DNA of 64,000 nt from Acidiferrobacteraceae bacterium (GCA_002724185.1 PBOB01000066.1:1-64000), one strand, 5' to 3'; positions 11,141-62,389 are shown, counted from the stretch's first letter. Numbers and translations are program-made. The notes: a model not told the origin generated them from the letters alone.

Positions 11141-11198
11141 GTCATGATCTCCTTTCGTCCCAGTCAACTGCTAATAGCATAACGCAAAAAATACTTGA

Positions 11199-13213: not shown

Positions 13214-13264
13214 CATTCAGTTGCTATCATTCAACATTAGGCTTGTTGAGTTGTGAGGGAAGAT

Positions 13265-14881
13265 GTGAAAAAAGAATCATCTTATGATTACATCATCGTC
13301 GGCGCCGGTTCCGCGGGCTGTGCTCTTGCTGCACGCCTCAGTGAAAATCCTGATTGCAAAATCTTACTAATTGAAGCTGGTGGATGGGATCGCGACCCAT
13401 TGATCCATATTCCGCTCACATGGGCCAAAATGCTGCTCGAACAAACCCATGACTGGGGATATTTCTGTGAACCAGAGGAAGCTGTGAATGGTCGGGCCAT
13501 TGAATGTGCGCGTGGTAAGATATTTGGTGGATCTTCGTCAGTTAACGCAATGGCATATGTGCGTGGTAATCGTGGTGACTACGATAGATGGGCAGCAAAT
13601 GGATTAGTCGGATGGTCTTATAAAGATGTACTCCCATATTTTAAGAAACTTGAAACTTGGGAACATGAAGACCCTTATCGTGGGAATTCTGGCCCATTGA
13701 ATGTCCAATACTGTCGATACAAAGATCCATTAGTCGACTCTTTTGCGGAAGCTGGCAAAGAAGCTGGCTATGGGTGGACAAACGACTACAATGGCAAAAC
13801 CCAAGAGGGTTTTAGTAAACTGCAAATGACCATAAAAGATGGGCGACGCTGCAGTGCCGCAACAGCTTATATTAGACCCATTAAGAATCGAAAAAATCTC
13901 ACCATTTCGGTTAACTCTTTGGCCAGTGAAATAATCTTCGAGCAAGATCGTGCTGTTGGTATCAAATATATTCAACGTAATCAAATTAATATTGCACGAG
14001 CAAGCCAAGAGGTAATCTTAAGTGCTGGTGTAATTAATACGCCCCAATTGCTAATGCTATCTGGAATTGGCAAATTCGATCATCTATCTCAACACAACAT
14101 CCAAACAAGAATTGATCGGCCTGGTGTTGGTCAGAATCTCCAGGATCAAATGTCTACTGTTATCCTCTATAAGCGAAAAGATCCAGGGCCATTCCATCGC
14201 ATGATGAGATATGATCGAATTGGCCGAGAATTGATTAAAGCATATTTGTTGGGCTCCGGAGGCGCCACAGATGTCCCAGGCGGCATTACAGCATTCCTCA
14301 ACAGTGACAACGATGCTCAATTACCGAACTTGCAACTCCTATTAACAGCTGCGCCATTAGGGGCCTGGCCATATCTAAGACCCTTCAAGAAGCCGTTCAA
14401 CGATGGCTTTGTATCTCGAGTTGTACTTCTCGATCCAGAAAGCCGCGGCACAATAACACTGAAATCTGCCAACATCTTGGATAAACCCGTAATAAAGCAA
14501 AATTTTCTGTCAACACCCAGAGATTGGGAAGTAATGAGGGCTGGACTGAGAATAGCACGAGAAATCGCTTCACAACCAAGTATGAAGCCCTTCATTGGTG
14601 CTGAAATCACACCCGGCAGCTCCAAAACATCAAATTATGATCTAGATCAGCATATTGCTTCAACAGCCATCACCTTGCATCACCCTTTAGGTACATGTCG
14701 CATGGGCAAACAAGACGATACATATGCCGTTGTCGATTCGGAGCTAAAGGTGATTGGTGTAGACGCGCTTCGCGTGGTAGATGGGTCTGTGATGCCAGAC
14801 CTTGTCCGTGGCAACATAAATGGCCCAATCATAATGATTGCGGAAAAAGCTGCTGATCTTATCCAGAACAAAATTCCTTGA
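13265..14881 (+). CDS. GMC oxidoreductase, probable pyridoxine 4-oxidase
   Basis: 538 residues from the GTG at 13265, preferred over GTG 13253 because AGGGA lies just upstream of it. FAD motif [19 protein letters not shown], then [49 protein letters not shown] and [15 protein letters not shown] with the GMC active-site His/Asn. The segments [23 protein letters not shown] and [11 protein letters not shown] resemble, as far as I recall, pyridoxine 4-oxidase of Mesorhizobium loti, which oxidises pyridoxine to pyridoxal with O2. It lies convergent to an operon with the next three enzymes of that pathway, which strongly supports this reading over a generic choline dehydrogenase. Confidence 0.7.
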
Positions 14882-14914: not shown

Positions 14915-15655
14915 CTACCAGCGCACCATGCCTGCATCGACATTAAGAACTTGACCCGTAATACGATGCGCTTCTGGCGAAGCAAGAAATACGACAGCAG
15001 GCGCAATATCAGAAGGTTGATTATGTCCCTTGATCGGTTGCAACATCTCAACAAACTCGAATGCATCTTTATGCGGAGTGCTCTGGACTCCTTCAGTATT
15101 TGTCAATCCAGGCGTAACACCATTGACGGTAATCTTATAGGCACCCAACTCTGTCGCTAACGCCCTAGTCAAACCAAACACGCCACCTTTCGCAGAAACG
15201 TAAGCTGCCATGTTAGGCGTTCCTGCAAAAATTGTGTTAGAAATAATATTAACAATACGCCCATACTCTTTTTTACGCATCACATCTGAGGAAGCGCGAC
15301 ACATTAAGAATGTACCATCTAAATTGACGCGCATTATTTGTCTCCAATGATCAAAATCAACATCATCCCATGCGATAAAAGGCACAATAGCCGCATTGTT
15401 GACGAGCACATCTACACCGCCATACTGTGTTACAACTGTCTCATGTAAACTGCTTACCTGCTGAGGGTCGCCAATATCACACTGAATCCCAATAGAACTA
15501 TTGCCACACTCCTCTGCAGTTGTATTAGCGCCCTCCGCATTTTGGTCTACCGAAATTACTAGAGCTCCTTCACTACCAAGTTGCAGTGCAACAGCCTTAC
15601 CTATACCTTGAGCTGAGCCAGTAACAATCGCTACCTGATCTTTAAAACGTGTCAT
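14915..15655 (-). CDS. Pyridoxal 4-dehydrogenase (short-chain dehydrogenase)
   Basis: 246 residues from the ATG at 15655, which has GGAGGA just upstream; an ATG 12 bases earlier lies within that ribosome site. SDR landmarks: VTGSAQGIGKAV (NAD-binding TGxxxGxG), VLVNNAAIVPF, a catalytic Asn/Ser/Tyr/Lys set with YVSAKGG. The stretches VPFIAWDDVDFDHWRQIM, FAGTPNMAAYVSAKGGV and LNVDAGMVRW closely resemble the tetrameric pyridoxal 4-dehydrogenase of Mesorhizobium loti, which converts pyridoxal hemiacetal to 4-pyridoxolactone with NAD. It is last in the operon after the aminotransferase and the lactonase, exactly the neighbouring steps. Confidence 0.8.
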   Translation of the reverse strand: MTRFKDQVAIVTGSAQGIGKAVALQLGSEGALVISVDQNAEGANTTAEECGNSSIGIQCDIGDPQQVSSLHETVVTQYGGVDVLVNNAAIVPFIAWDDVDFDHWRQIMRVNLDGTFLMCRASSDVMRKKEYGRIVNIISNTIFAGTPNMAAYVSAKGGVFGLTRALATELGAYKITVNGVTPGLTNTEGVQSTPHKDAFEFVEMLQPIKGHNQPSDIAPAVVFLASPEAHRITGQVLNVDAGMVRW

Positions 15656-15706
15656 ATCTTCCTCCATTCACTGATGATATTGCTGCCAAAATATTCCAAG
15701 GCAGAA

Positions 15707-16894
15707 CTACGCCGATGCATCTTTTACAATAGCTTTAGTCGCGGCATCAATGCCTGCCGCAGTATCAACATTATGCCCTAAATGATTGAGAGCCCCGCCT
15801 AACGCTGTGATCGCTATCAATGCATAAATCGGTTGCGCAACGAGACCCATATGGCCGATGCGTAACAGCTTGCCTAAAGTTTCATTTCTTCCGCTAGAAA
15901 AAGCTACTCCAAAAATGTTCCTGGCAGTCATTCTCAGGGATTCGTCTTCAACGCCATCAGGAATACGAACTGCCGTGGTAGTATCGGCAGCGATTGATTC
16001 ATCAACTGCCCAAAGATCGCAACCCATTGCGCGAATTCCAGCTCGGCATGCGCTGGCAGTTGTTCTATGGCGAGCCCAAACATTCTCAGGACCCTCCTCT
16101 AGATAATTATCAATGACTGCATTAAGGCCATTCATTTCCGCAACCGAAGGCGTAAACGGGAAGGGTTGGTCATGACGCCACGCATTTCTCCAATCTGAAA
16201 GACTGAGTGCAGACGCAAACGGTGCATCTTTATTATTGTCTATGTGCTGCCATGCGCGTTCATTGACCGCCATAATCGTTAGACCAGGTGCACCACCAAG
16301 GCATTTTGATGGGCCGGTAATAAATATATCAGCACAACAATCATTGGGGTGAATATTCATTCCCCCCCAAGATGAAACAGCATCTACTAATAAAAGCGCA
16401 TTATTGTCTCTAACAATCTTGCCGATTTCTTCGATTGGATTAATGGTTCCTGATGGTGTGTCATGATGAACCACGGACACCACACTAATATCTTTTCTTT
16501 TTGCAAACATTGAGTCTACTTGGTCTGGAGATATTGACTCGTTATATGGCACTTCTATTTCAAGAAGTTCCTTATTGTATCTTGCTGACCAGTAACCAAA
16601 ACCCTTTCCATATACTCCAGAAGCTAGATTCAGAACCACATCCTGCTTAGATATCAAGGAGGCCGCAGCAGCCTCAATACCTGGTGCTGGCTCACAATGC
16701 ATAATGAGCGCTGGGTAATCAATTCTTAAGGCTTCCGACACTTTATCATTAACATTTTCATAAAACTCCTGGAAATATGGATCGAAGTCATATTGAACTG
16801 GCGTTGCCATAGCGCGAAGCACTCGTGGATAAACGCCTACAGGGCCAGCCGATAAGGTAATGGCCGGCTCTGTCTGCGTCTGCTTTTTTTTCAT
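15707..16894 (-). CDS. Pyridoxamine-pyruvate aminotransferase (PPAT)
   Basis: 395 residues, class V aminotransferase fold. It would convert pyridoxamine and pyruvate to pyridoxal and alanine. Segments LSAGPVGVYPRVLRAM, LNLASGVYGKGFGYW, VVHHDTPSGTINPIEEIG, LVDAVSSWGGM and GPSKCLGGAPG match the Mesorhizobium loti enzyme as I know it. By count, the aldimine lysine falls at residue 197 and arginines at 336 and 345, the positions reported for the active-site Lys and substrate-binding Arg of that enzyme. An alternative is serine-glyoxylate or alanine-glyoxylate aminotransferase, but the neighbours (lactonase and pyridoxal dehydrogenase) make PPAT far more likely. A gagaggt ribosome site precedes the ATG. 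Confidence 0.85.
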   Translation of the reverse strand: MKKKQTQTEPAITLSAGPVGVYPRVLRAMATPVQYDFDPYFQEFYENVNDKVSEALRIDYPALIMHCEPAPGIEAAAASLISKQDVVLNLASGVYGKGFGYWSARYNKELLEIEVPYNESISPDQVDSMFAKRKDISVVSVVHHDTPSGTINPIEEIGKIVRDNNALLLVDAVSSWGGMNIHPNDCCADIFITGPSKCLGGAPGLTIMAVNERAWQHIDNNKDAPFASALSLSDWRNAWRHDQPFPFTPSVAEMNGLNAVIDNYLEEGPENVWARHRTTASACRAGIRAMGCDLWAVDESIAADTTTAVRIPDGVEDESLRMTARNIFGVAFSSGRNETLGKLLRIGHMGLVAQPIYALIAITALGGALNHLGHNVDTAAGIDAATKAIVKDASA

Positions 16895-16968: not shown

Positions 16969-17781
16969 TTAGGAATAAAATCCGGGCGCTTTAACATAAT
17001 TCGGAAAACTATCTGGATCATGAGAATAGAATAACTCCGCATCATGCTTTTCGGCCAATGTCTTCAATTTTTTTAGAGATTCAACGCCGGCAGTCGGATC
17101 CAAATGAAAACTCGCAATACACATCATGTCCATACTTTTTTGGCTGTAGCAAGCATCCGCTGTGAACAGCATAGGTCGTCTGTTTTTTAGCTCAACCATC
17201 ATACTGTAATGACCAGCAGTATGGCCAGGCGTCTCAAACAACCATATCCCCTTTGCAATTTCCTGATCACCAGATACCGTTTCAAAAGTCGGCGTAAAAA
17301 TATCCAGTTCAGGATCAAGAGCCGTCTTTAATTGATCAGATCGCTCTTTGGCTACATCAGACGAGAAAGTCAAGTCTGAATAACCCAGCATTTCGAATGG
17401 CTGCGGACACGCGCACACTTCTAATTCTTTTGTATGACAGATTGTGCAGGCTGTTGTCAGATGCTTATTACCGCCGCAATGGTCAAAATGATAATGCGAG
17501 TTAATTACATAATTAACGTCGGACGGCTTCAAATTGAGTTTCTCCAGCTGGCCCGGTATGGTTTGCTCCTTTGTTTGCAAAGGCTTCTCAAATGGCAGTA
17601 CTTTCTGCACATGATCATAGTCGTAACCAGTATCAAAAATATAACGCCCATCCTCATGCTCAATAAGCACGGAATAGGTTGGGAATCGCAATTCGCCGCC
17701 AGGTCCCCTATTCCAAAAGGCGTGAAACCCGTCAATGACCAAGCTCCCACCATCTAGAATATATACTTTGGTATCAGCCAT
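16969..17781 (-). CDS. 4-pyridoxolactonase (metallo-beta-lactamase fold)
   Basis: 270 residues; GGGAGGT lies just upstream of the ATG. It opens the lactone of 4-pyridoxolactone to 4-pyridoxic acid. The metal motif HYHFDH occupies residues 96-101 and PGHTAGHYS supplies a further His. The N-terminus (TKVYILDGGSLVIDGFHAFW, then NRGPGGELRFPTYS) and LPFEKPLQTKEQTIPG are close to the Mesorhizobium loti lactonase rather than to AHL quorum-quenching lactonases, which share the fold. It lies between the transporter permease gene and the PPAT gene, all on one strand. Confidence 0.82.
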   Translation of the reverse strand: MADTKVYILDGGSLVIDGFHAFWNRGPGGELRFPTYSVLIEHEDGRYIFDTGYDYDHVQKVLPFEKPLQTKEQTIPGQLEKLNLKPSDVNYVINSHYHFDHCGGNKHLTTACTICHTKELEVCACPQPFEMLGYSDLTFSSDVAKERSDQLKTALDPELDIFTPTFETVSGDQEIAKGIWLFETPGHTAGHYSMMVELKNRRPMLFTADACYSQKSMDMMCIASFHLDPTAGVESLKKLKTLAEKHDAELFYSHDPDSFPNYVKAPGFYS

Positions 17782-17839: not shown

Positions 17840-18775
17840 TTATCTTTCGCCACGAATATAAGGAAGGGCTAGCGCTGCCGGTAAATAACTATTACGACCG
17901 AGTAAAATCAGCATAACAATGACCATGGTGAAAGGCAACATCTGAACAACATCAGTTGGTATATTAAACCCTGCTACCTGCAAAGCAGTTGTTAGCGATA
18001 GACTCACACCAAATAACGCTGCTCCATAAAGCACCCATGTTGGATGCCCGCGCGCTAACATAGCCAATACAATACCAATAAACCCTGCTCCATGAATCAT
18101 ATGGGGCACAAAAATTCCTGCACCTATATTGGCTAGAAATGCGCCCCCTACGCCCGCCAAGAATCCTGTTGCGAGTACAGCCCATGTTCTGGTACTACGC
18201 ACGCTAACTCCAGTAACGTCTAGAGCAGCTGGTACATCACCAGCAGCTTGCAAATTTAAACCGACGTAAGTTCGTTTAAATAGCCATACCAAAAAGAAAA
18301 CAAGGCCAACTGCTAAATAAACTACTGGATGCCTATGAAAGAAAACTTCACCCAAATATGGAATGTCTCCAACTACGGGGATGACTAATGGCTCGACGGC
18401 GGATAAACGCGGATAGGTTCGACTAAATTGGAAATGATGAAGTAAGGCAGTTAGGCCATCGGCGCCTAAAGTAAGCGCGATACCGATTACGATCTGATTG
18501 AGCCCTAGGATCACACAGAATAGCACCATGAGCATGGCCACCGAAACACCGCCCAACCCGCCAAAGAGAAATCCAAGCCAAAAAGAATCAAAATAATAGG
18601 CGGCACAAAAACCCGTATAAGCTCCGACTAACATCATGCCCTCTAAGCCTATATTTAAGACGCCAGATTTTTCAGAGATTTGTTCGCCTATACCTGCCAA
18701 TAAAAGGGGTACACCGGCCGTGACCGATCCGAACAGAAGAGCTGTTACAAAAGTTTCTGTTAAGAGTTCAGACAT
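17840..18775 (-). CDS. BMP-type ABC transporter permease (YufQ-like), candidate vitamin B6 importer
   Basis: 311 residues with about eight to nine hydrophobic segments. It carries the family hallmark near residues 38-46 (LNIGLEGMMLVGAY) and GVSVRSTRTWAVLATGF typical of the second permease of nucleoside/BMP importers. It is the fourth gene after the solute-binding, ATPase and first permease genes, 6 bp behind the latter, and 58 bp ahead of 4-pyridoxolactonase. Known BMP systems move nucleosides or riboflavin; the genomic context here points to pyridoxine, pyridoxal or pyridoxamine. Confidence 0.85.
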   Translation of the reverse strand: MSELLTETFVTALLFGSVTAGVPLLLAGIGEQISEKSGVLNIGLEGMMLVGAYTGFCAAYYFDSFWLGFLFGGLGGVSVAMLMVLFCVILGLNQIVIGIALTLGADGLTALLHHFQFSRTYPRLSAVEPLVIPVVGDIPYLGEVFFHRHPVVYLAVGLVFFLVWLFKRTYVGLNLQAAGDVPAALDVTGVSVRSTRTWAVLATGFLAGVGGAFLANIGAGIFVPHMIHGAGFIGIVLAMLARGHPTWVLYGAALFGVSLSLTTALQVAGFNIPTDVVQMLPFTMVIVMLILLGRNSYLPAALALPYIRGER

Positions 18776-18781
18776 AATGTT

Positions 18782-19840
18782 CTATGTTGTCCTCTGACGC
18801 CAACGATGATCAAGATACTCAACGATAGCTAAAAACATTAGCAACAAACCGACTAATACCAGCACGAAAAATGTTGGAACACCAAGTCTTCGAGAAGCGC
18901 TTTCTCCGCCGATCATCAGCACCGCAAAAAATAGAACAAATGCGATGGTGCCAATACCATGAAATCGAGCTAAGAATACAAGCGGAACTACGAGTAACCC
19001 ATACGCAGGATCCCAATCAGCTCTGACGGTTCCCCATACACCCAAAATCTCGACGGCACCACCCATACCAGCAAGCGCTGCACTTAATCCAAAAGCAACA
19101 TAAGTTAGAAACCGAACATTGAGACCAGCGTGAACCGCAGCTTTTGGATTGGCTCCCACAACTTGTAGATTCAAACCAAACGACGTCCTAGTCATTAGGA
19201 AATGAACAAAGAGAACCGAGAGTAAACCTAATATAACACCATGATGAATGATTGTATCGAACAACCTTGGCAATCGATCCTCGACTGCTAATGTCACAGT
19301 TTGCGGCACCGTAGTCGCAGGATCATTAAACGGAATCTTGATCAATACATTAGCGAGACTAATTCCAATGAATGTCATCATCAACGTAGTGATGATCTCG
19401 TTAACACCATGATTTGCTTTTAAATATGCTGGAATCAACGACCAAATAGCGCCAATCGTCGCAGCCAATATGAAGCATATACAAATCATCGCCCAATTCG
19501 GAATGATAGTATTCAAGGGTGAACCTACGGCTGCAACAAGCACCGCGGCTAACAAAAACTGCCCATCAACACCTAGATTCCATATTCCAGCTCGGAAGGC
19601 TACGATCAATCCTGCAGCAACAAAAAGTAGGGGCGCAGTCCTAACAAGGGTAGCCTGAAAACCAGTCCAGCTTAGTAGACCACGCTTAACCACATACCAG
19701 TAATAAGCTATGGGATCTTTGCCGAGTATTACGAGTATCAATCCACCAACCACGAGTGCTAACAAAATCGGTGCAATGATCCTTATTGCGGACCGAGCTA
19801 ACTCAGATACTCGCCCTATGTTTATATACCGACTAGTCAA
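18782..19840 (-). CDS. BMP-type ABC transporter permease (YufP-like), candidate vitamin B6 importer
   Basis: 352 residues, strongly hydrophobic with around eight to ten membrane segments. Family landmarks: IWNLGVDGQFLLAAVL, NHGVNEIITTLMMTFIGI, VGANPKAAVHAGLNV and LVFLARFHGIGTIAF. The start is a TTG whose bases overlap the stop of the ATPase gene (TTGA), so translation is probably coupled. No better ATG exists near the N-terminus. It should form a heterodimeric channel with the following permease. Confidence 0.85.
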   Translation of the reverse strand: MTSRYINIGRVSELARSAIRIIAPILLALVVGGLILVILGKDPIAYYWYVVKRGLLSWTGFQATLVRTAPLLFVAAGLIVAFRAGIWNLGVDGQFLLAAVLVAAVGSPLNTIIPNWAMICICFILAATIGAIWSLIPAYLKANHGVNEIITTLMMTFIGISLANVLIKIPFNDPATTVPQTVTLAVEDRLPRLFDTIIHHGVILGLLSVLFVHFLMTRTSFGLNLQVVGANPKAAVHAGLNVRFLTYVAFGLSAALAGMGGAVEILGVWGTVRADWDPAYGLLVVPLVFLARFHGIGTIAFVLFFAVLMIGGESASRRLGVPTFFVLVLVGLLLMFLAIVEYLDHRWRQRTT

Positions 19841-21438
19841 TTTAAGGAGGCCCCAGTCATAAGTGATCCGATCCTATTCTCTGATCCAGGATTAGCTTCA
19901 ACAATGCCGACCATTTGACCCTGATACATGACACCGATCCGATCAGCTAAATCAATTAACTCTTCGAGCTCTGTGGAAATCAAGAGTGTAGTTATACCCC
20001 TAGATGCTCCTTCACGTATACGGTCGCGGGCAGATGCAATGTTCTGTAAGTCAAGTCCATACGTAGGTTTATTCAGTAATACTATTTCGGCATTGTCATC
20101 CATCTCGCGTGCAAACAGCGCCTTTTGGATATTGCCTCCCGACAGTCGGCCAATAGATGTCCGTTCAGAAGGTGTTCGAATATCATACTTTTTGATTTGA
20201 CGTCTTGCAAAGGAAAAAATTGCACGCCATTTGGTGAAACCATATTTCCAATATGGATTTTCGCCAATACTTTTGGCCACTAAATTAGTAGCTACTGAAT
20301 GATCAGACACTATACCCTCGCCAACACGGTCATCTGTTAGATAACGAAATCCCCGATCTCTCCTTTCGGAGACTTTGAGTACCGAAATATCTTCTCCGTC
20401 AAGCTCAATCTGGCCAGTTGCAAGATCGCGCTGCCCCGCCAAAACCTCCGCTAAGTGCTTCTGCCCATTGCCATCAATGCCGGCAATACCAAATATTTCA
20501 CCCCTAGCTACCTCAAATGAAACAGCAGATAACCCACACTCTCCCGGCAATGCGATTGTTGAAACTTCCTTGGCTGCAACAGAGATTGATCTAGTTTGAC
20601 TATCCGCGAAAACATTTCGAACAGCCACATTTGTACCTCCATTATCAACAGTCGAATCGCTCTGACCTTCTTTATCGAACATCATACGGATAATTTGTTC
20701 GATTGTTTCCTCTTCTCCCATGCCAGATCCATGATCAGGATTAATCTGACCTGCAAACGCACCGTTGCGTAGCACCGAAATACGATCACAAAGTTCGTAT
20801 GCCTCTCTTAACTTATGTGTGACAAACACGATAGCCACTCCGTTTTCGCGTAGCCGCTTCATAACATGACCAAGTTCAATAACGCCTTGTGGCGTCAGCA
20901 TTGAGGTCGGTTCATCCAGTATCAGAACTCGCTCCCCACCACGCCATAGAGCGCGCATGATTTCGACCTGCTGCCGCTGACCAAGAGACAGGCTACCAAC
21001 TAGAGCCTCTGGATCAATTGTTACTGCTAATAGCCCGCATAGCTCAGCGAATCGACTACGTGCAGATTCTTTATCCAGTTTGTTTTTCCAGGAGCCGCCA
21101 AGCATCAGGTTTTCAATAACTGATAAAGTGGGGGCAAGCAACACATGTTGAAAAACCGTTCCTATGCCCGCCAGCAGACTATCACGTGGAGAGCCAAGCC
21201 GACGCTCCACACCGCCAATTATAATGGTCCCAGCATCAGGTCGATGAAGTCCAGCAAGTATCGAGATAAGAGTGGACTTCCCTGCGCCATTCTCGCCAAG
21301 CAAAGCGTGAATCTCTCCCGCGTAAATGTCGAGAGTAATATCCTGATTGGCGACAACGCCCGGGAAAAACTTAGAGATACCTCTTAACTCAATAGCTGAG
21401 GTATGATGAATTTTTGAGTCGCTAGCTGATAATGCCAC
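19837..21438 (-). CDS. BMP-type ABC transporter ATP-binding protein with two ABC domains (YufO-like)
   Basis: 533 residues from a GTG. Domain 1 (about residues 15-245): Walker A LLGENGAGKSTL, signature LSLGQRQQVEI, Walker B VLILDEPTSML. Domain 2 (about 295-530): degenerate Walker A GIDGNGQKHLAEVL, signature LSGGNIQKALFARE, Walker B region EIVLLNKPTYGLD, in which the usual E is replaced by K (LLNKPT). A weakened second site is normal for this family. It energises the two permeases and lies downstream of the binding-protein gene across a strong hairpin. Confidence 0.88.
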   Translation of the reverse strand: MALSASDSKIHHTSAIELRGISKFFPGVVANQDITLDIYAGEIHALLGENGAGKSTLISILAGLHRPDAGTIIIGGVERRLGSPRDSLLAGIGTVFQHVLLAPTLSVIENLMLGGSWKNKLDKESARSRFAELCGLLAVTIDPEALVGSLSLGQRQQVEIMRALWRGGERVLILDEPTSMLTPQGVIELGHVMKRLRENGVAIVFVTHKLREAYELCDRISVLRNGAFAGQINPDHGSGMGEEETIEQIIRMMFDKEGQSDSTVDNGGTNVAVRNVFADSQTRSISVAAKEVSTIALPGECGLSAVSFEVARGEIFGIAGIDGNGQKHLAEVLAGQRDLATGQIELDGEDISVLKVSERRDRGFRYLTDDRVGEGIVSDHSVATNLVAKSIGENPYWKYGFTKWRAIFSFARRQIKKYDIRTPSERTSIGRLSGGNIQKALFAREMDDNAEIVLLNKPTYGLDLQNIASARDRIREGASRGITTLLISTELEELIDLADRIGVMYQGQMVGIVEANPGSENRIGSLMTGASLN

Positions 21439-21470
21439 CGTGCACGTTTTCCTCTGAGGAGAAAATCGGA

Positions 21471-21501
21471 AGAGTGGCGACCATTAAAACGTCGCCACTC
21501 T
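21471..21501 (-). terminator. Intercistronic hairpin between binding-protein and ATPase genes
   Basis: A perfect 11-bp stem AGAGTGGCGAC / GTCGCCACTCT (21471-21481 and 21491-21501) with a 9-nt loop, starting 21 bases after the binding-protein stop on the minus strand. A short T-run (ATTTTC) follows, so it could act as a partial terminator or as a barrier to 3' exonuclease, giving excess binding protein over the membrane parts. The effect is inferred. Confidence 0.7.
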
Positions 21502-21522
21502 CCACATCGCAACAGAGAACTG

Positions 21523-22581
21523 TTATCCCTCGTTTATATCGACGGACGTCATCAGTGCGCGAACAGCCTGTGCATCGGAAATATTATCAACTGAAACAGA
21601 CCCTGAGATAATCTTATCCCGCAAGTCCATTAATTCATTCCAAATATTCGCGGGTATATGTGGGCTTTTAAGCAAACGAACAGAATCGTTCTCCAAGCCA
21701 ATCTGATACCCACGTGTTCCGAAAGTGCCGTCCATGAGATCGCTCACCATGGCATCATAGACTGGAACCATGTCCCAAAGCACAGATGACAATAGATGGC
21801 CTTTGTCGATCTCGGTCTTATCACCAATCACGTCAATAAACCAAACCTTGCCACCATCGACCGCCTTAGTCGTTTCAACCGCTTGAATCATCCCAAAAGA
21901 CGACCCGTTACCCTGACCAAAGATAACATCAGCACCGGCAGAGATAACAGATTCAGTCACCCGACGGCCGCCTGCGGCATCGCCGTAAGCGGCTGGACCG
22001 ATTACAGCGTAGATGATCTTAGTTGAATCGGATGCTGCTTTAACACCCATTGCAAAAGCCGCTGATTGCGAGTTCCACGAGGGTGGCTCACCAGAAACAA
22101 CAATCCCTACACTCCCGGTTCTCGTGGTGTGGGCCGCTAATACGCCGGCAAGATAAGCTCCGTCATGACCGCTTAACGTGTAGTCGGTAACGAGTCCTTC
22201 AACTAAGCCTTGCGGAGTATCAACAATGGCGACGGGGACTCCAGTTTCTTGAGCGATTTCTGGGCCAGCTGTGTTATAGCCACTCGCATGGCAAATCATG
22301 AGACTTGCTCCCTCCTCCGCGAGTTCACGCAAAGTTGGCCGAACATCACCATAACCAAGCCCTTCAGCCGGCATAAACTCAAGGCCATATTTTTCGGCCA
22401 CAGCTCGGGCTGCATCTACACCTTGCTGATTCCAGCCATAGTCAGTTCCTTGCTCTGGTACCAAGACCGCGATCGCTTTAAGGTCGGCTGCCGAAGATAA
22501 TGCAGAAAAACCAAGGCCAAACACAATCAGGGCAGCGGAGATCAACATTTTAGATATTTGAGCAACAAGCGTTTGTCTCAT
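21523..22581 (-). CDS. BMP family ABC transporter substrate-binding protein, candidate vitamin B6 binder
   Basis: 352 residues with a signal peptide (hydrophobic residues about 12-27, cleavage near SSA-AD) and no lipobox Cys, so a soluble periplasmic protein rather than the lipoprotein form. BMP/PnrA-like features: DYGWNQQGVDAARAV, GYGDVRPTLRELAEEGASLM, CHASGYNTAGPEIAQE, VIFGQGNGSSFGMIQAVE, VWFIDVIGDKT and LLSSVLWDMVPVYD. GAGGAGG precedes the ATG. Family members bind purine nucleosides or riboflavin. Because it heads an operon whose last three genes degrade vitamin B6, I infer it binds a B6 vitamer. The gene runs divergently from a LysR regulator. Confidence 0.82.
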   Translation of the reverse strand: MRQTLVAQISKMLISAALIVFGLGFSALSSAADLKAIAVLVPEQGTDYGWNQQGVDAARAVAEKYGLEFMPAEGLGYGDVRPTLRELAEEGASLMICHASGYNTAGPEIAQETGVPVAIVDTPQGLVEGLVTDYTLSGHDGAYLAGVLAAHTTRTGSVGIVVSGEPPSWNSQSAAFAMGVKAASDSTKIIYAVIGPAAYGDAAGGRRVTESVISAGADVIFGQGNGSSFGMIQAVETTKAVDGGKVWFIDVIGDKTEIDKGHLLSSVLWDMVPVYDAMVSDLMDGTFGTRGYQIGLENDSVRLLKSPHIPANIWNELMDLRDKIISGSVSVDNISDAQAVRALMTSVDINEG

Positions 22582-22802: not shown

Positions 22803-23696
22803 ATGATTCTACATGCAGACAAAATGGCACTATTTGCGGAAGTGGCTAGAGCGGGTAGTTTTACAGCAGCCGCAACAAAAATGGGGTTACCTAAATCAAC
22901 CGTCAGCGAAAGAATTACGCAATTAGAAAAACGCCTTGATACCCGACTACTAAATCGTTCAACCCGACGACTAAGCCTTACCTGGGCTGGTGAGCGATAC
23001 CTCGAAAAATGCCAAGCGTTGTTGGATATCCTAGGTGAAGCTGACGAAACTATTCAACAAATCAAAGCAGAGGCAAATGGCGAATTACGCATTACTGCTG
23101 CTGGCCGCTTTAGTGAGATGGCCCTACCAGATCTACTAGTACATTTCCAAGAACTATATCCAAAGGTCACATTTGACATAGTCGTTGAGGACGAACCCCT
23201 AGATATCATTGAGAATGGTTTTGATATAGCCTTTCGTACAGGTGATCTTAAAGACTCTTCGCTCGTCAGTTACCAATTATTAGATAACCATAAATTCCTA
23301 GTTGCGAGCACAGAGTATCTCTCTGAACATCCAATTAATACATTTGAAGATCTTTCTAGCGCGAGAGCGATTATTCATCCTGGATATCCCATCTGGAAAA
23401 TGTCTGATCAAAGCCGGACCAAAATCGTACGACCAAAACCATCTGTAAAAGTAAATAATATGATATTCGCTCGTAACTTATGCGAGAAAGGTGGCGGAGT
23501 GACAGTGTTGCCCGAAGGCTTAATTAAGCCGCAGCCAGGAACGCCTAGAATGACTCGAGTTCTCCCGGACTGGGACATTGAAGCAAATGCACTATACATG
23601 GTTTATTCGAGTCGTAAACATAACACGCCCGCATTTAAAGCGTTCACATCTTATGTAATCGAAAAGTACTCACACTTCTATAATAACCTCAACTAA
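22803..23696 (+). CDS. LysR family transcriptional regulator
   Basis: 297 residues. The N-terminal winged helix-turn-helix is clear (MALFAEVARAGSFTAAA, PKSTVSERITQLEKRL, TRLLNRSTRRLSLT), followed by a periplasmic-binding-protein-like effector domain from about residue 92 (GELRITAAGRFSEM, DIAFRTGDL, FLVASTEYL, GGGVTVLPEGLI). No ribosome site precedes ATG 22803; Met8 is an alternative. It is transcribed away from the transporter/B6 operon, the usual position of an activator responding to a pathway intermediate. The effector is not predictable from sequence. Confidence 0.9.
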   Translation: MILHADKMALFAEVARAGSFTAAATKMGLPKSTVSERITQLEKRLDTRLLNRSTRRLSLTWAGERYLEKCQALLDILGEADETIQQIKAEANGELRITAAGRFSEMALPDLLVHFQELYPKVTFDIVVEDEPLDIIENGFDIAFRTGDLKDSSLVSYQLLDNHKFLVASTEYLSEHPINTFEDLSSARAIIHPGYPIWKMSDQSRTKIVRPKPSVKVNNMIFARNLCEKGGGVTVLPEGLIKPQPGTPRMTRVLPDWDIEANALYMVYSSRKHNTPAFKAFTSYVIEKYSHFYNNLN

Positions 23697-23745: not shown

Positions 23746-24696
23746 TTAGCCTGAAGGGTCAGTTGCACCATCAAGCACTTTGCGAGCATCAACTAATAAC
23801 TTGGCCCTCCTCTTACGAAGAGATTCGATCTCTTCTTGGGAATATGCATATATGCCCTGACCCGTTTTCATCCCCAAATTCCCAGAAATAACCTTTCCTC
23901 GAATCATGTCACTAACATCAGACCTATCACAAAGATCTTTGTTGAGATAACTGCCAACGGCTTCATATATATCCAGACCTGCCATATCAAGCAATGCCAT
24001 TGGCCCAATCACTGCCAGCTTATAGCCTATGCCCCACGATACGCAGGTATCCAAGTCTTTAGCATCTATAACGCCGTGATCCACTAAGTCTATGCATTCT
24101 CTAAGTAAGGCATAGAGCACACGATTCTCAACAAATCCGGGTATATCTTTTTTTACAACTACTGGAATTAGCTTAAGTCTACGAATACAAGTAGTCATAG
24201 CTTCTACTACATCTGGTGATGTAGATTTTCCCGCGATAACCTCTATCATAGGAATAATATGTGGTGGATTAGACCAATGCATGCCCACAAACCTACTTGG
24301 TTTAATTGCTCCCTCCTGTAATTGACTAACTGGAATACCCGAAGAATCACTCGCCAAAATACAATCTTGAGATACGATTAACTCGAGCTCCCTGAACAGG
24401 GCTACCTTTAGCTCTAGGTTTTCAGGAATAGTCTCTATAACCAAATCAGCATTACTTACACATTCTTGGAGACTAGAAGTCAAAGTTATATCGGTCCGAA
24501 TATCTTGGCCAGCCCCCAATGACTGCAACACTTTTCTTGCTACTTTTATTTTGTCATCGGCCTGCCCGCGAGCCTCTTCATCAGCATCATAAGCGGAAAC
24601 TGATATACCACCGCTCGCTAGGGTTGCCACGATTCCAGGCCCCATCGTACCTAGCCCAATAACAGCTGCGCGCTTGATATTGTGTAGTGCTGGCAT
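23746..24696 (-). CDS. 3-hydroxyacyl-CoA dehydrogenase family enzyme, possible FHMPC dehydrogenase
   Basis: 316 residues: Rossmann domain (AAVIGLGTMGPGIVATLASGG) then the C-terminal helical domain. The catalytic His lies in GMHWSNPPHIIPMIEVIAG instead of the HFFNP of fatty-acid enzymes, and VENRVLYALLRECIDLV and DTCVSWGIGYKLAVIGPMAL follow. This pattern resembles, from memory, 5-formyl-3-hydroxy-2-methylpyridine-4-carboxylate dehydrogenase of Mesorhizobium loti, a member of this family acting after 4-pyridoxic acid in vitamin B6 degradation. The B6 genes next door support this. A lambda-crystallin-like or carnitine dehydrogenase is the main alternative. It is last in a minus-strand operon. 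Confidence 0.6.
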   Translation of the reverse strand: MPALHNIKRAAVIGLGTMGPGIVATLASGGISVSAYDADEEARGQADDKIKVARKVLQSLGAGQDIRTDITLTSSLQECVSNADLVIETIPENLELKVALFRELELIVSQDCILASDSSGIPVSQLQEGAIKPSRFVGMHWSNPPHIIPMIEVIAGKSTSPDVVEAMTTCIRRLKLIPVVVKKDIPGFVENRVLYALLRECIDLVDHGVIDAKDLDTCVSWGIGYKLAVIGPMALLDMAGLDIYEAVGSYLNKDLCDRSDVSDMIRGKVISGNLGMKTGQGIYAYSQEEIESLRKRRAKLLVDARKVLDGATDPSG

Positions 24697-24714
24697 CAGC
24701 TTAATATGACAAGA

Positions 24715-25317
24715 CTATGCAGCAACAACACGTTGATATGCTGGTAGCCCTGAAATAACCTTATGCCAGCGATTTAATTCTGGTAATTCCGGAAGTATTA
24801 CCGGAAAACCTAGGCACCGGTTGCAGATAGGCCCTAGCGCTATATCAGCGATAGTCATATGACTGCCTGCTAGCCATTCATTAGATTTCAAGTGACTATT
24901 CAAAATCGTCAAATGCATACCCAAGCTTTCAGCCATTGAAGATAAATTGGAGCTACGCTCCTCTTCGGGTTTTTTTGTTTCTTTAAAAACCTCTACGTAA
25001 TTAGCATTCAAAGAAGCCAATAACCAATCCATCCAAGTTTCACATTGAGATCGTAACTTCGGGTCAGATGGCAGTAATTCAGACGAGGTCTTGGCGCATA
25101 AGTAACGCAGAATTGTGTTTGATTCCCATACGACATGCTCTTGATCAATAAGAGTCGGTACTTTGCCAGTAGGGTTCAAACTTAAGTAAGATGAGTCGCC
25201 CGTATTTCCAAACTGCCGACCATAATCCTCCCGAGTGTATTCCAGATCAAGCTCTTCAAGCAGCCATAAAACCTTTTGAACGTTACCAGATGTTTTTCTA
25301 CCTAGTAATCTCAGCAT
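24715..25317 (-). CDS. Glutathione S-transferase family protein
   Basis: 200 residues from the ATG at 25317, which has TGAGGAAC upstream; the frame is open further up but the GST fold begins with MLRLLGRKTSGNVQKVLWLL. The thioredoxin-like domain includes LNPTGKVPTLID with the cis-Pro and WESNTILRYL for glutathione binding; the helical domain has WLAGSHMTIADIALGPI. Bacterial GSTs of this length include isomerases of ring-cleavage products such as maleylpyruvate. Its operon contains a gentisate-type dioxygenase, so an isomerase role is plausible but unproved. Confidence 0.85.
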   Translation of the reverse strand: MLRLLGRKTSGNVQKVLWLLEELDLEYTREDYGRQFGNTGDSSYLSLNPTGKVPTLIDQEHVVWESNTILRYLCAKTSSELLPSDPKLRSQCETWMDWLLASLNANYVEVFKETKKPEEERSSNLSSMAESLGMHLTILNSHLKSNEWLAGSHMTIADIALGPICNRCLGFPVILPELPELNRWHKVISGLPAYQRVVAA

Positions 25318-25363
25318 AATTTTGTTCCTCAGTAAGTAAATATCATAATTGCTAGCTCGACAC

Positions 25364-25765
25364 CTATAATGGCTTATATGCAATTGCGTCCATTTCAATC
25401 TTAGTGCTAATTGCCGCTCGCGCCTCTACCGTAGTTCTCGCAAGTAACCCTTCTGGAAAATATTCGGCGAAGGTTCTGTTATAACGCCCAAAGTCGCGAG
25501 CGTCCTCCAAAAAGACTGTGATCTTAACAATATTTTCCAGATCCGCACCATCACACCGTAGAACTCGACGAATTGATTCTATTGTTGCCCTACACTGCTC
25601 TTCAATTGTGCCATCACACATTTTTCCATCTGCATCCTTTGCGACTTGTCCAGACACAAATATGTAATCTCCGGCACGTACAGCTGGATGAAATGGAAGG
25701 TTCGGATTCTTTTCCCCAATCGGATGAATGTTTACTTTGTTATCTCTCTTTGTTACTACCGACAT
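25364..25765 (-). CDS. RidA family (enamine/imine deaminase) protein
   Basis: 133 residues with AAGGAG upstream of the ATG. RidA fold signatures: VRAGDYIFVSGQVAKDADG, EEQCRATIESIRRVLRCDG, IVKITVFLEDARDFGRYN, ARTTVEARAA with the substrate Arg, and KIEMDAIAYKPL with the conserved Glu. RidA proteins hydrolyse reactive enamines and imines. In this operon it could act on nitrogenous intermediates formed when a pyridine ring is opened; that assignment is inference. Confidence 0.85.
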   Translation of the reverse strand: MSVVTKRDNKVNIHPIGEKNPNLPFHPAVRAGDYIFVSGQVAKDADGKMCDGTIEEQCRATIESIRRVLRCDGADLENIVKITVFLEDARDFGRYNRTFAEYFPEGLLARTTVEARAAISTKIEMDAIAYKPL

Positions 25766-25800
25766 AGCAATTATCTCCTTACGAAATTCTAGCAGTACGA

Positions 25801-26928
25801 CTACCAGACCGATGTCTCGATGATATCAACACCTCGCTGGCGATCAATAATATAAATCAATCCACGTTCGTCTATAGTCACGTCATTAGTAGATGCTAGA
25901 CCATGACCAGATGGCGCGTCAGGCTCAAAAAAGCCTATTTCCCTGGGCAAAAAAGGATCGGAAACATCAACTAATCGAAGCCCTTTCGCGAACCAGGCGA
26001 ACGGAATTACAGTACCAGTTATTTTCTCGGATGGCTGGTGACAACCCATCATAGGTGGTTGTGGTTCACCGTCTATATCTAAATCCGGAACTTGAAATGT
26101 TGAAATTGGGACCGGGTTAGACTCATTCGTAATATCGAAAATCCAGGTAAACGCAGGGGCAGCGTCCCATAGTTTTGCCACATCTTCATCGGCTACAATC
26201 ATGACATCTCTACCCTTAAGTCGCTCGGGCATTGCCAAACAAGTATGTGTTGGATGAGGAAACACGGAGCTAGTGTTAACGGCGGATACTAAGGTCGGTC
26301 TTGACATATCACTGATGTCAAGAATAAAAAAACCGTGGTGCCAATAACTGACATAAAGCCGATCCCCTCTTCGCAATGGATGATGACAACGTGGTGGAAC
26401 CCAACTATCCCATGGGTACGGCTCCCCGCCTGCCTCCCACTGCCCTGGAATCCACCAACGGCCGACCTCTTGTGGACTACTAGGGTCAATCAAATCCAAA
26501 ATCATAACGATGTTACCAATGTAACCTTCGACAGTCGGTGAGATATACGCATATCGGCCGTCAAAACTATATCTATGTACTCCTCGGCCTCCAGTTGTCC
26601 ATTTCGTAATCAGAGACGGATCAGCGGGTTTACTTACGTCATATATTGCTATACCACCTCCGAATTCCTGAGAGCCTTCCGTTCCCAATCGCTCATGATT
26701 GACCAACATAATGTCATTAAAAACCCGGACTTTATGGGAATGCCACCCTTTAGGCATACCTATACGGGCCACTTCTCTGGGATGAGCGGGATCCGATATG
26801 TCAAATAGGCTGGTCCCTGCCGGCTCATGCATATGCCCAACAAACAAGGTATCACCATCAACCCATACCTGGCCTCCTCCTGGGCAATCAATATGAGCTA
26901 CATGCGATGTATTCTTAACTCTTGGCAT
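25801..26928 (-). CDS. LVIVD-repeat beta-propeller protein
   Basis: 375 residues, no signal peptide. Repeated units of the form SLFDISDPAHPREVARI, IAIYDVSKPADPSLITKW, MILDLIDPSSPQEVGRW, FILDISDMSRPTLVSA, LRLVDVSDPFLPREIGFF mark LVIVD-type propeller blades. Many His residues (HSHKVRVF, PPRCHHPL, FPHPTHTCL, MMGCHQP) sit at equivalent places and could line a metal or substrate site. It is cotranscribed with a dioxygenase and a RidA. Function unknown; a ring-cleavage accessory or a hydrolase is a guess. Confidence 0.75.
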   Translation of the reverse strand: MPRVKNTSHVAHIDCPGGGQVWVDGDTLFVGHMHEPAGTSLFDISDPAHPREVARIGMPKGWHSHKVRVFNDIMLVNHERLGTEGSQEFGGGIAIYDVSKPADPSLITKWTTGGRGVHRYSFDGRYAYISPTVEGYIGNIVMILDLIDPSSPQEVGRWWIPGQWEAGGEPYPWDSWVPPRCHHPLRRGDRLYVSYWHHGFFILDISDMSRPTLVSAVNTSSVFPHPTHTCLAMPERLKGRDVMIVADEDVAKLWDAAPAFTWIFDITNESNPVPISTFQVPDLDIDGEPQPPMMGCHQPSEKITGTVIPFAWFAKGLRLVDVSDPFLPREIGFFEPDAPSGHGLASTNDVTIDERGLIYIIDRQRGVDIIETSVW

Positions 26929-27002
26929 AAATTCTCTTCAACCCTATCAAAATAGCTTACTGTTTATTTGAACCATTTCTCAGCCCAACTGCCAAAAACG
27001 TC

Positions 27003-28148
27003 TCAGCGGTCGAGTCTAACTATCTCGCCTGAACCAGTCTTCCCAAATTTCGAGTAGAAACCCAATGTCTTAAGTGTAGGCTCATCGCTGGCAACGAATA
27101 GTATCGCCCTATCTGTTTGAGATCCATTGACGTGCTCACACCAATGCCCCCCTGGCACCGCAACAGTATCGAATGGAGCCCAATCAAATCGTTCCCCGTC
27201 AATCATGCTATAACCCGACCCTTCTAATGGGGCTAATAGTATCGATGCATTTTGCTTCATAGGAAGAGTTTGCTCACCAGGTCGGAGCATCTGAGCAAAG
27301 AAAGTCATCGTATTGTAAATTGGCCTGCCGCGCAAAGGATCAACGTACTCAATCAGTATGCCTTCAAATGGATCACCTTCCCAATCCTTGTACCGATCAA
27401 GCAACTCTAACATTTGCTCCCATCTGTAGACATACATTGGTGAAGCATTGCCCGTGCCCCGCTGGTGTGAAACAAATCTTGGCAAGAATCCGCCTTGGCC
27501 ATAAATTTGTTCTGAGTAATTTGTGCAAAACCGCTCCGACTGCATCCGTTTAGAGACAATTACACCCTCCTCTTCTTCTGTGTAGTCGTGTTCAAAATGT
27601 AAAGAATTTAATGCTTCTGCCAATGGCAAATCGAGCACACTTAGATTAATTGCCGGTTCCGCCCCTTCATTCCCATGATTATGCCAAGTATCGTGAGGTG
27701 TTAGCACGAGATCTCCTGGCCCAAAAACAATATTCTCCCCCTCCACTCCGGTAAAGTTTTGATTCCCAGTTAAACCTAAACGGATTGCATTAGGAGAATG
27801 CCGATGTGGCGGCATGATCTCTGTTGGATCGTTTAGTCTATATGCCATATAGAGTGTAGTTACAGTCGCCCTACTCGGAGCAAGACCGGGATTAACTAAC
27901 ACGAGAGAACGACGTTCAGAATTCTCCATCTTGATAAGTTCGGCCGAACGATATAACAAGGGCTTGATAGCATTCTCATAATTCCAGCTAAATGGAATAG
28001 CCTTGCGCTTATCCATCACTTGCTGGTCTTCATCGTGATCAGAACTTGCATCAATCGCCCAGTAGGGCGCCATATTGCTCTTGTATACATCACGATGAAG
28101 GCTATCTAATGCTTCCACACGTTCAATTTCCCTTTTTGTATTGACCAT
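27003..28148 (-). CDS. Gentisate 1,2-dioxygenase-like bicupin protein
   Basis: 381 residues from ATG 28148, which has GGAGGA at ideal spacing; the ATG 12 bases earlier forms part of that site. The first cupin has PPHRHSPNAIRLGLTG, VFGPGDLVLTPHDTWHNHGN, giving the three His Fe(II) ligands of gentisate and 1-hydroxy-2-naphthoate dioxygenases. The second cupin (about residues 275-370: MLRPGEQTLPMKQNASILL, FDWAPFDTVAVPGGHWCEHVN) has lost most ligands, which is common in this family. The enzyme should cleave a hydroxylated ring between adjacent carbons. It starts an operon with LVIVD, RidA, GST and an FHMPC-dehydrogenase-like gene, so a hydroxypyridine substrate is possible. Confidence 0.75.
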   Translation of the reverse strand: MVNTKREIERVEALDSLHRDVYKSNMAPYWAIDASSDHDEDQQVMDKRKAIPFSWNYENAIKPLLYRSAELIKMENSERRSLVLVNPGLAPSRATVTTLYMAYRLNDPTEIMPPHRHSPNAIRLGLTGNQNFTGVEGENIVFGPGDLVLTPHDTWHNHGNEGAEPAINLSVLDLPLAEALNSLHFEHDYTEEEEGVIVSKRMQSERFCTNYSEQIYGQGGFLPRFVSHQRGTGNASPMYVYRWEQMLELLDRYKDWEGDPFEGILIEYVDPLRGRPIYNTMTFFAQMLRPGEQTLPMKQNASILLAPLEGSGYSMIDGERFDWAPFDTVAVPGGHWCEHVNGSQTDRAILFVASDEPTLKTLGFYSKFGKTGSGEIVRLDR

Positions 28149-28558
28149 ATTCTCCTCCATGATTTACCTACATTGTCTTTTGGGAAATCTAGAACAACAC
28201 TCATCAAATTAGTCGCTGATAAGCTAATAGAATCCTTCATGCCGCTTTCACTATAACTCAGCAGAAGGCTGGCAGAAAACCCATCGCACAAACCCCCCAA
28301 TTCTATCGATATTGATAGTACACCATAGCTAGAACGTCTCCAGGTCCGACAAATGGCGATTTTGCAACAGAACTAGCCATGGAACCCAAAATCGATTAAT
28401 AATAAAATCTGGATACTTTTTCTCTATTCCTTGAATAATTTAATTAGTAGTAAATATAGATTATCAGGAGGGCAGTGGCAGCAATTGAGCTTGGTAGTAG
28501 AATACGTCGAGGGGAAGCCATTCCTTGAAAGGATTAGAATAATTGCTGGTAGCGCAAT
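28149..28558. promoter_or_regulatory. Divergent spacer upstream of bicupin and PhyH-type genes
   Basis: 410 bp without a supported gene. It should hold promoters for both directions. A weak plus-strand candidate is TTGAAT (28431-28436) with TATAGA (28455-28460). AGGAGGG at 28466-28472 precedes a 17-codon frame (GTG 28475 to TGA 28528), not supported as a gene. Nothing else is clear. Confidence 0.3.
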
Positions 28559-29476
28559 ATGAAAATTACCCAACACCATATAGACCACTATAAAACACAT
28601 GGATATGTGGCAGTCGAAAACTTTTTAACAGCAAAACAACTGGAAGCGATACGCGACGAGCTAAGAGAGCTAATGCCAGGATGGGTTGAATTTTGCGACA
28701 ACCCAGAAAATGGAAAGCCGCCAAATTGGGATCAGGATGGCTACTTTAACGATGACTCGGAAACAAAATTTCCATACCCAGGAAAAATTCTCAACAGTAT
28801 GGTAACACATCCAGAATTTCGAGCATTTGCTAAAATGATGGCAAATGGTCAGGATGTTCGTTGTGATGAATCATCCCTAAGTCTAAAATGTCAAGGTCAC
28901 CCAAGAGATGAAGATCAGGTCATGCATTGTGACTATGGAAATCACACTCTTGCCTATCCACCGGATAATTCTGACTACTGGCAAACTACATTTGTACTCT
29001 TTTACACGAATGTCGATCTCAATCATGCTCCAACAGCAATATGCCCCAAAACCTATTATAGTGATGACTACATCCTATCAAGAGTATGTTCACGGGCCGA
29101 TCGACCTGAGCTCTATGCTAACGAGATAAAAGCAACCGTGTCCGCAGGTTCAGTACTAATGTACAGCCACCGGACATACCATCGCGGAACTAAGTTCTTG
29201 AAAGATGTGGGGCGAATTGGCCACTGGATTAGCTATTCTCCAACTGCTTGGCAATGGCTTGGTAGAGACGGACTCTCTAAATCTGGAGGAAATCTCCGGG
29301 GACCAGAAATCCTTAGGCCGTGGATGGAGTCGGCAACAGCAGAGGAACGAACAGCAATGGGCTTCCCCCCTCCTGGTCATCCTTACTGGTGCGAGGAAAC
29401 AATCGCTGGTGTGTCGGCACGTTATCCGGGCATGGATATGACGCCCTACAAACTAGGTAGAGTTAGAGCAAATTAG
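28559..29476 (+). CDS. Phytanoyl-CoA dioxygenase family Fe(II)/2-oxoglutarate enzyme
   Basis: 305 residues. The N-terminus HIDHYKTHGYVAVENFLTA is typical of PhyH proteins. QVMHCDYGNHTL supplies the H-x-D iron ligands (about residues 121-123) and YHRGTKF the distal His with a possible 2-oxoglutarate-binding Arg. Such enzymes hydroxylate small molecules; the substrate cannot be deduced. Its stop codon overlaps the stop codon of the convergent SMP-30 gene (TTAG at 29473-29476). Confidence 0.8.
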   Translation: MKITQHHIDHYKTHGYVAVENFLTAKQLEAIRDELRELMPGWVEFCDNPENGKPPNWDQDGYFNDDSETKFPYPGKILNSMVTHPEFRAFAKMMANGQDVRCDESSLSLKCQGHPRDEDQVMHCDYGNHTLAYPPDNSDYWQTTFVLFYTNVDLNHAPTAICPKTYYSDDYILSRVCSRADRPELYANEIKATVSAGSVLMYSHRTYHRGTKFLKDVGRIGHWISYSPTAWQWLGRDGLSKSGGNLRGPEILRPWMESATAEERTAMGFPPPGHPYWCEETIAGVSARYPGMDMTPYKLGRVRAN

Positions 29477-62304: not shown

Positions 62305-62389
62305 GGGTTATCAAATATGGCATTCGTGCTTATTAGCAGAGAAAATTATTTACGAATTGTTTCTCTATGAGAAACATAAGTTCAATCTC

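Follow-up and report, generated by a model that had tools for sequence, protein, structure and literature searches.

A candidate bicupin-based ring-opening module in place of the classical flavin-dependent genes in bacterial vitamin B6 degradation loci

The bacterial pathway for degradation of vitamin B6 has been pieced together from few organisms and is centred on a flavin-dependent ring opener. A 64,000-nucleotide stretch from an Acidiferrobacteraceae bacterium (GCA_002724185.1 PBOB01000066.1:1-64000; hereafter, the window) raises the question of how the pyridine ring is opened in a locus where B6 genes stand beside a cassette of a different kind, comprising a bicupin dioxygenase, an LVIVD-repeat beta-propeller, a RidA-family deaminase, and a glutathione S-transferase-like protein (GST). 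We consider it likely that this is a B6 degradation locus with classical upper steps in which the cassette provides the lower steps by cleaving 3-hydroxy-2-methylpyridine-4,5-dicarboxylate (HMPDC). A preliminary description of the window had proposed that a ring-opening operon here substitutes for the flavin-dependent cleavage of the known pathway; the core of that interpretation, a B6 degradation locus with its ring-opening module replaced, is supported by the comparisons below.

The genes of interest are real open reading frames (ORFs) on the minus strand (Table 1), transcribed in the order bicupin, LVIVD, RidA, GST, and HCDH, the last being the orthologue of the dehydrogenase that oxidizes 5-formyl-3-hydroxy-2-methylpyridine-4-carboxylate (FHMPC) to HMPDC. 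The intergenic gaps are only ~18 to 75 bp, and Pfam and NCBIfam searches agree with the family of each of the five genes. Their placement beside B6 genes, also noted in the preliminary description, holds: the neighboring pyridoxamine-pyruvate aminotransferase (PPAT), pyridoxal 4-dehydrogenase, and 4-pyridoxolactonase all exceed curated NCBIfam cut-offs, which places the upper steps in the B6 pathway. HCDH scores 469 bits against the FHMPC dehydrogenase model NF042925, just under the cut-off of 500 (the next family model reaches 194 bits), and its nearest solved structure is the FHMPC dehydrogenase 4OM8, at 358 bits, whereas no other solved structure exceeds 136; its homologues in bicupin-type Rhizobiales clusters score 533 to 560 bits to NF042925, except for one at 467 (G622). 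This enzyme, which the preliminary description had grouped with the ring-opening genes, serves a step that the classical pathway also has and lies outside the alternative ring-opening cassette. The window's genome is 2.69 Mb in 96 contigs and 93% complete, and a genome search found the bicupin gene in single copy.

Evidence for replacement comes from genomes in which the two kinds of cluster can be compared directly. In the window's class (369 genomes), a search with NF042925 matched the window's own genome alone, and the association tests were therefore moved to the Rhizobiales (397 genomes) and the Pelagibius order. FHMPC dehydrogenase is encoded in 11 of the 397 Rhizobiales genomes, five with a classical-type cluster and six with the bicupin cassette, and both types share a frame of GMC dehydrogenase, FHMPC dehydrogenase, BMP-type importer, and, provided that the fetched sequence extends to it, lactonase. 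The five classical clusters encode an AAMS hydrolase (named by fold family and position, not by a match to a solved structure), the flavin oxygenase MHPCO (758 bits to PDB 3ALJ), and HMPDC decarboxylase (446 bits to 2Z7B), together with AA_synth (PF06684) and PEBP/YbhB proteins that are strictly conserved between MHPCO and the decarboxylase (L067:13251-14371, L058, L059, L065, L068); RidA and GST occur in none of them. In the other type the run bicupin–LVIVD–RidA–GST sits between the HCDH gene and that for GMC2, a 4-pyridoxic acid dehydrogenase (4PADH)-type protein, which is the place held elsewhere by MHPCO and HMPDC decarboxylase (G516 has its cluster divided between two contigs, L061 and L076). 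A bicupin search of the Rhizobiales set recovered exactly these six cassette genomes plus G389, the centre genome, which had been chosen for its paralogue and was left out of the statistics. Among the other 396 genomes, all six bicupin carriers have FHMPC dehydrogenase (Fisher 9e-11, uncorrected for shared ancestry), and the remaining five genomes with this enzyme all carry MHPCO.

Whole-genome searches of 32 genomes (5 classical and 27 with the bicupin, the window's included) showed exclusion. MHPCO (83 to 100%), HMPDC decarboxylase (73 to 100%), and AAMS hydrolase (72 to 100%) are present in 5/5 classical genomes, whereas an orthologue of any of the three was found in 0/27 bicupin genomes: the AAMS hydrolase search returned zero matches, the MHPCO search only generic flavoproteins (best, 38%), and the decarboxylase search only generic aldolases (best, 42%). 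For the window's genome specifically there was no match to MHPCO or AAMS hydrolase and only a 29% generic aldolase, which sets it outside the classical MHPCO route, and clustering of the genes conserved at cassette loci revealed no common monooxygenase or decarboxylase family. Because the orthologues of all three classical enzymes are missing from bicupin genomes, the cassette replaces three enzymes rather than one, and its replacement of the ring-opening step, as first proposed from the window, is strongly supported computationally.

The association extends well beyond the Rhizobiales. Scanning genome contigs with the bicupin recovered 45 loci, and about 30 genomes share the order bicupin–LVIVD–(RidA–GST)–FHMPC dehydrogenase–ABC importer–lactonase; on contigs of sufficient length, the BMP importer, lactonase, SDR dehydrogenase, and PPAT are also clustered with the cassette, of which RidA and GST are usual members. 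Carriers include Dongia, Pelagibius, Tistlia, Rhizobiales, and many Rhodospirillales-like metagenome-assembled genomes (MAGs). Co-occurrence with PPAT and lactonase genes in other genomes had been suggested as a check on the original idea, which was to fall if the genes never occurred together, and these ~30 genomes provide it and show that the arrangement is no accident; the whole-genome exclusion described above is a stronger test, which the idea also passes. In a phylogenetic tree of bicupins the B6-linked sequences form a supported clade (96/92) with paralogues outside it, and an LVIVD gene lies alongside the bicupin in nearly all loci of this clade. Of 20 genomes in which a B6-clade bicupin lies inside the cassette, 19 have the lactonase; it was found in 0 of 8 others, of which seven carry paralogues from beyond the clade and one is that of locus L026, whose bicupin is sister to the clade. 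In the Pelagibius order (61 genomes, all searched), the same 4 genomes carry both lactonase and bicupin, and these genes occur in no others; two of the 4 were already known bicupin carriers. Plasmid searches with HCDH and the bicupin recovered distant homologues only.

The active site of the bicupin can be compared residue by residue with characterized enzymes, since alignments show that its numbering coincides with that of salicylate 1,2-dioxygenase (SDO). In SDO and the gentisate dioxygenases (GDOs), His119, His121, and His160 bind the iron and Arg83, Arg127, and His162 are catalytic (PMC11264262, PMC10306065); Gln108, Trp172, and Asp174 are strictly conserved in GDOs, with Asp174 recognizing the 5-OH of gentisate (PMC10306065). 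All six iron-site and catalytic residues are invariant among 32 bicupin sequences, and positions 108, 172, and 174 are Arg, Asn, and Ser in 32/32, while four reference GDO-type proteins retain Gln, Trp, and Asp. The predicted model (pLDDT 81) best matches the GDO 3BU7 (3e-29) and SDO, and identity to the SDO and GDO structures is ~26 to 29%, but the score against the gentisate 1,2-dioxygenase model TIGR02272 is 195 bits, far below the cut-off of 442. Given this shortfall and the loss of Gln108, Trp172, and Asp174, the bicupin is, as judged from its sequence, a dioxygenase of the GDO/SDO fold that is not a gentisate dioxygenase; the earlier label of "gentisate-type" thus fits its fold and metal site but not its score or its substrate-recognition residues. 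Within the mapped pocket only Tyr104 and Leu178 separate the B6 clade from its paralogues, and the other distinguishing positions lie outside the pocket. Paralogous bicupins that also have Arg108, Asn172, and Ser174 (L034:8637-9914, L039:7932-11831, L041:992-2924) occur near dienelactone hydrolase, FAH-like, or flavin monooxygenase-like genes, which would suggest that this clade of enzymes has a further substrate yet to be described.

The upper steps would follow the classical order, from pyridoxamine or pyridoxine to pyridoxal, 4-pyridoxolactone, 4-pyridoxate, FHMPC, and HMPDC; beyond this point bicupin, LVIVD, RidA, and GST would replace HMPDC decarboxylase, MHPCO, and AAMS hydrolase, and we infer the substrate, the bond cut, the accessory roles, and the products as follows. 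Enzymes of the GDO/SDO class cleave between an OH-bearing carbon and the adjacent COOH-bearing carbon. HMPDC offers an OH ortho to a COOH, an arrangement that is lost once the classical decarboxylation has taken place; an enzyme of the GDO/SDO class would thus need to act ahead of that step, which would explain the loss of the decarboxylase. The Fe(II) bicupin would hold HMPDC by the 3-OH and the 4-COOH ortho to it, in the way that SDO binds salicylate, and with O2 would cut the C3-C4 bond to give HOOC-C(CH3)=N-CH=C(COOH)-CO-COOH, a pyruvate Schiff base (imine) joined to an enamine (aminomethylene-oxaloacetate), a chemistry that is derived rather than observed. GST may isomerize this product, RidA (or water) would hydrolyze the imine/enamine, and the LVIVD protein would hydrolyze the formyl-oxaloacetate-like remainder, for a predicted net reaction of HMPDC + O2 + 3 H2O -> pyruvate + oxaloacetate + formate + NH3 or, after decarboxylation, two pyruvate, formate, and CO2. 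On balance we favor a third route of B6 degradation in Dongia, Pelagibius, Tistlia, Rhizobiales, and many uncultured Alphaproteobacteria, in which an HMPDC 3,4-dioxygenase followed by RidA and a new LVIVD hydrolase would yield pyruvate, oxaloacetate or pyruvate, formate, and ammonia.

The predicted imine product would fit both RidA and a hydrolase-like propeller. By profile, the solved structure closest to the LVIVD protein is the Sphingobium TCM1 phosphotriesterase 5HRM (1.5e-10), and a Foldseek search with its predicted model (pLDDT 84) also ranks 5HRM first (1.5e-17 versus 6.6e-10 for the next protein). Its orthologues have many invariant His, Asp, and Glu residues, and the resemblance to 5HRM is one of fold and weak profile match; its presence with the bicupin at almost all B6-clade loci makes the protein a good candidate for the hydrolase. 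In the cassette RidA, Arg110 and Glu124 are near-invariant among 14 orthologues and, by eye, correspond to the catalytic Arg105 and to Glu120 of E. coli. RidA proteins hydrolyze imines and enamines, and because such species also hydrolyze spontaneously, loci without RidA would be tolerable. A HalD-like 2-oxoglutarate oxygenase (L028:10616-11476, also in L027, L040, and L045) is conserved in B6 clusters that have neither RidA nor GST, where it could be an alternative accessory step.

Several observations weigh against HMPDC cleavage by the cassette. RidA, GST, or both are missing from several loci, so neither can be essential, and the idea that they are was dropped. Many of the genomes are incomplete MAGs, and the window's genome is 93% complete. 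At L026 and L029, bicupin and LVIVD genes stand on contigs without visible B6 genes, and the genome of L026 (G393) is without lactonase; two B6-clade bicupins occur in G389, which gave no match to lactonase or FHMPC dehydrogenase. By Z-score the LVIVD protein is tied with ordinary WD40 propellers, and 5HRM is not set apart. The pocket of Arg108, Asn172, and Ser174 is common to paralogues outside B6 clusters, so it is compatible with HMPDC without being specific or proof, and a B6-specific role for Arg108 and Ser174 was likewise abandoned. Finally, weak class II aldolases (25 to 42%) are present in many bicupin genomes, and a distant decarboxylase among them is possible. These aldolases, and the 38% MHPCO relative in the bicupin genome G380, would suit a scenario in which non-homologous enzymes encoded elsewhere maintain the classical chemistry and the cassette serves a side branch or detoxifies B6 intermediates. 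No such family recurs at cassette loci, however, and the cassette occupies the very place of MHPCO and HMPDC decarboxylase in Rhizobiales clusters, with AAMS hydrolase missing too; we regard this scenario as very improbable.

The identity of the substrate is a separate matter. The fold and iron site are those of GDO and SDO, non-B6 paralogues lie, by inspection, beside dienelactone hydrolase or FAH-like genes, and a more distant cupin (L069) is beside an annotated dienelactone hydrolase, all of which could indicate a gentisate- or salicylate-type dioxygenase acting on an unrelated benzenoid in an incidental B6 neighborhood. We rate this the least probable explanation in view of the co-localization in ~30 genomes, the concordance with lactonase and FHMPC dehydrogenase, the exclusion of MHPCO in the Rhizobiales, the lost gentisate-recognition residues, and the fact that bicupin genomes retain no classical ring opener. 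A closer contender keeps ring opening by the cassette but has the bicupin act before full oxidation, on 4-pyridoxate or FHMPC, both of which likewise have a 3-OH ortho to a 4-COOH. The cluster of G389 (L075:1-19901) is of interest here, as it encodes bicupin, LVIVD, RidA, GST, a 52% homologue of GMC2 (4PADH-like), and NMT1-type ABC and TRAP importers, yet no FHMPC dehydrogenase, and it may be a scavenger of 4-pyridoxate only. Nearly all other clusters nevertheless retain FHMPC dehydrogenase, usually adjacent, and the exchange of Gln for Arg108 adds a positive charge that would suit a second carboxylate, though paralogues have Arg108 too; an earlier substrate is therefore unlikely, and HMPDC is the substrate that we prefer.

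Table 1. Genes of the B6 region in the window, with positions counted from its first nucleotide
Feature	Position	Strand	Evidence
Bicupin Fe(II) ring-cleavage dioxygenase, putative HMPDC 3,4-dioxygenase	27003..28160	-	ORF, PDB 2D40/3BU7/2PHD, active site, model
LVIVD-repeat beta-propeller, proposed metal-dependent hydrolase of ring-opened product	25801..26928	-	Pfam LVIVD; best match 5HRM
RidA-family enamine/imine deaminase	25364..25765	-	Family searches; Arg110 and Glu124 conservation
GST, proposed isomerase of ring-opened product	24715..25323	-	Family search; kept in cassette
FHMPC 5-dehydrogenase orthologue (HCDH), yields HMPDC	23746..24696	-	4OM8, 358 bits
LysR regulator, divergent, candidate regulator	22803..23696	+	
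BMP-type ABC importer: substrate-binding protein, ATPase, two permeases	17840..22581	-	Kept in both cluster types
4-Pyridoxolactonase	16969..17781	-	NF047925, 473 bits versus cut-off 325; PDB 3AJ3
PPAT	15707..16894	-	NF046070, 616 bits versus cut-off 600; PDB 2Z9U
SDR pyridoxal 4-dehydrogenase	14915..15667	-	NF047923, 393 bits versus cut-off 325
GMC oxidoreductase (GMC2), proposed 4PADH	13253..14881	+	~60% orthologue of gene beside FHMPC dehydrogenase in classical clusters
GMC oxidoreductase, pyridoxine 4-oxidase-like candidate	11199..12752	+	42-47% to GMC gene edging B6 clusters

The bicupin may alternatively start at an in-frame ATG at 28148, the choice of the preliminary description, and GST, with its ATG at 25323, at a TTG at 25398. 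A promoter and terminator scan found sites no more numerous than in shuffled sequences. An SMP-30 lactonase (29473-30399), a PhyH protein (28559-29476), and a PEBP protein (30479-31015, unlinked, unlike the PEBP of classical clusters) were considered as cassette members and rejected, as none emerged as conserved among related loci. A second RidA-family gene (10757-11167) adjoins the pyridoxine oxidase-like GMC gene, placing RidA genes at both ends of the B6 region. Further along, 34978-59134 contains three HyuA and four HyuB hydantoinase/oxoprolinase-type genes with dipeptidase-like and peptide-ABC importer genes, probably for catabolism of cyclic amides, and a PutA-like gene of proline catabolism is followed by another weak HalD-family protein (62357-63394; 27.1 bits, cut-off 26).

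If the proposed route is correct, genomes without MHPCO are being wrongly scored as non-degraders of vitamin B6, and the gentisate/salicylate dioxygenase family gains a nitrogen-ring class of substrate. The LVIVD propeller, RidA, and GST, at present unannotated or generically named, would acquire functions, including a role for RidA in ring catabolism, and the pathway would be a case in which core chemistry is swapped while upper steps and importer stay put. Searches of the open-access literature (pyridoxate with dioxygenase, LVIVD with dioxygenase, and cupin with pyridine and RidA) found no description of such a route, which is weak evidence given that only open-access papers were covered; to our knowledge, a demonstration of pyridine ring opening would be a first for a cupin of the gentisate type.

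Among known systems, the B6 pathway of Mesorhizobium loti (HMPDC decarboxylase mlr6791/2Z7B, MHPCO 3ALJ, and AAMS hydrolase) has the same upper steps and the same frame of GMC dehydrogenase, FHMPC dehydrogenase, BMP importer, lactonase, and PPAT, but in the window the decarboxylase, flavin oxygenase, and amide hydrolase give way to bicupin, LVIVD, RidA, and GST. The bicupin has the fold, the three iron-binding His residues, and the Arg83/Arg127/His162 set of the SDO of Pseudaminobacter salicylatoxidans (2PHD) and of GDOs (2D40, 3BU7), from which it differs in the changes of Gln108 to Arg, Trp172 to Asn, and Asp174 to Ser and in falling far under curated cut-offs. Its best curated model is 5-aminosalicylate 1,2-dioxygenase MabB (NF049978), but at 212 bits it does not reach the cut-off of 650, and there is no amino-salicylate context. 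The gentisate/maleylpyruvate pathway, exemplified by L070 with its maiA and FAH-family genes, likewise pairs a dioxygenase with a GST and a hydrolase-like protein, whereas here RidA is an addition, the setting is B6 catabolism, and the hydrolase candidate is not of the FAH family but an LVIVD propeller, whose nearest solved relative by both profile and fold is the haloalkylphosphorus hydrolase of Sphingobium TCM1 (5HRM), at ~20% identity.

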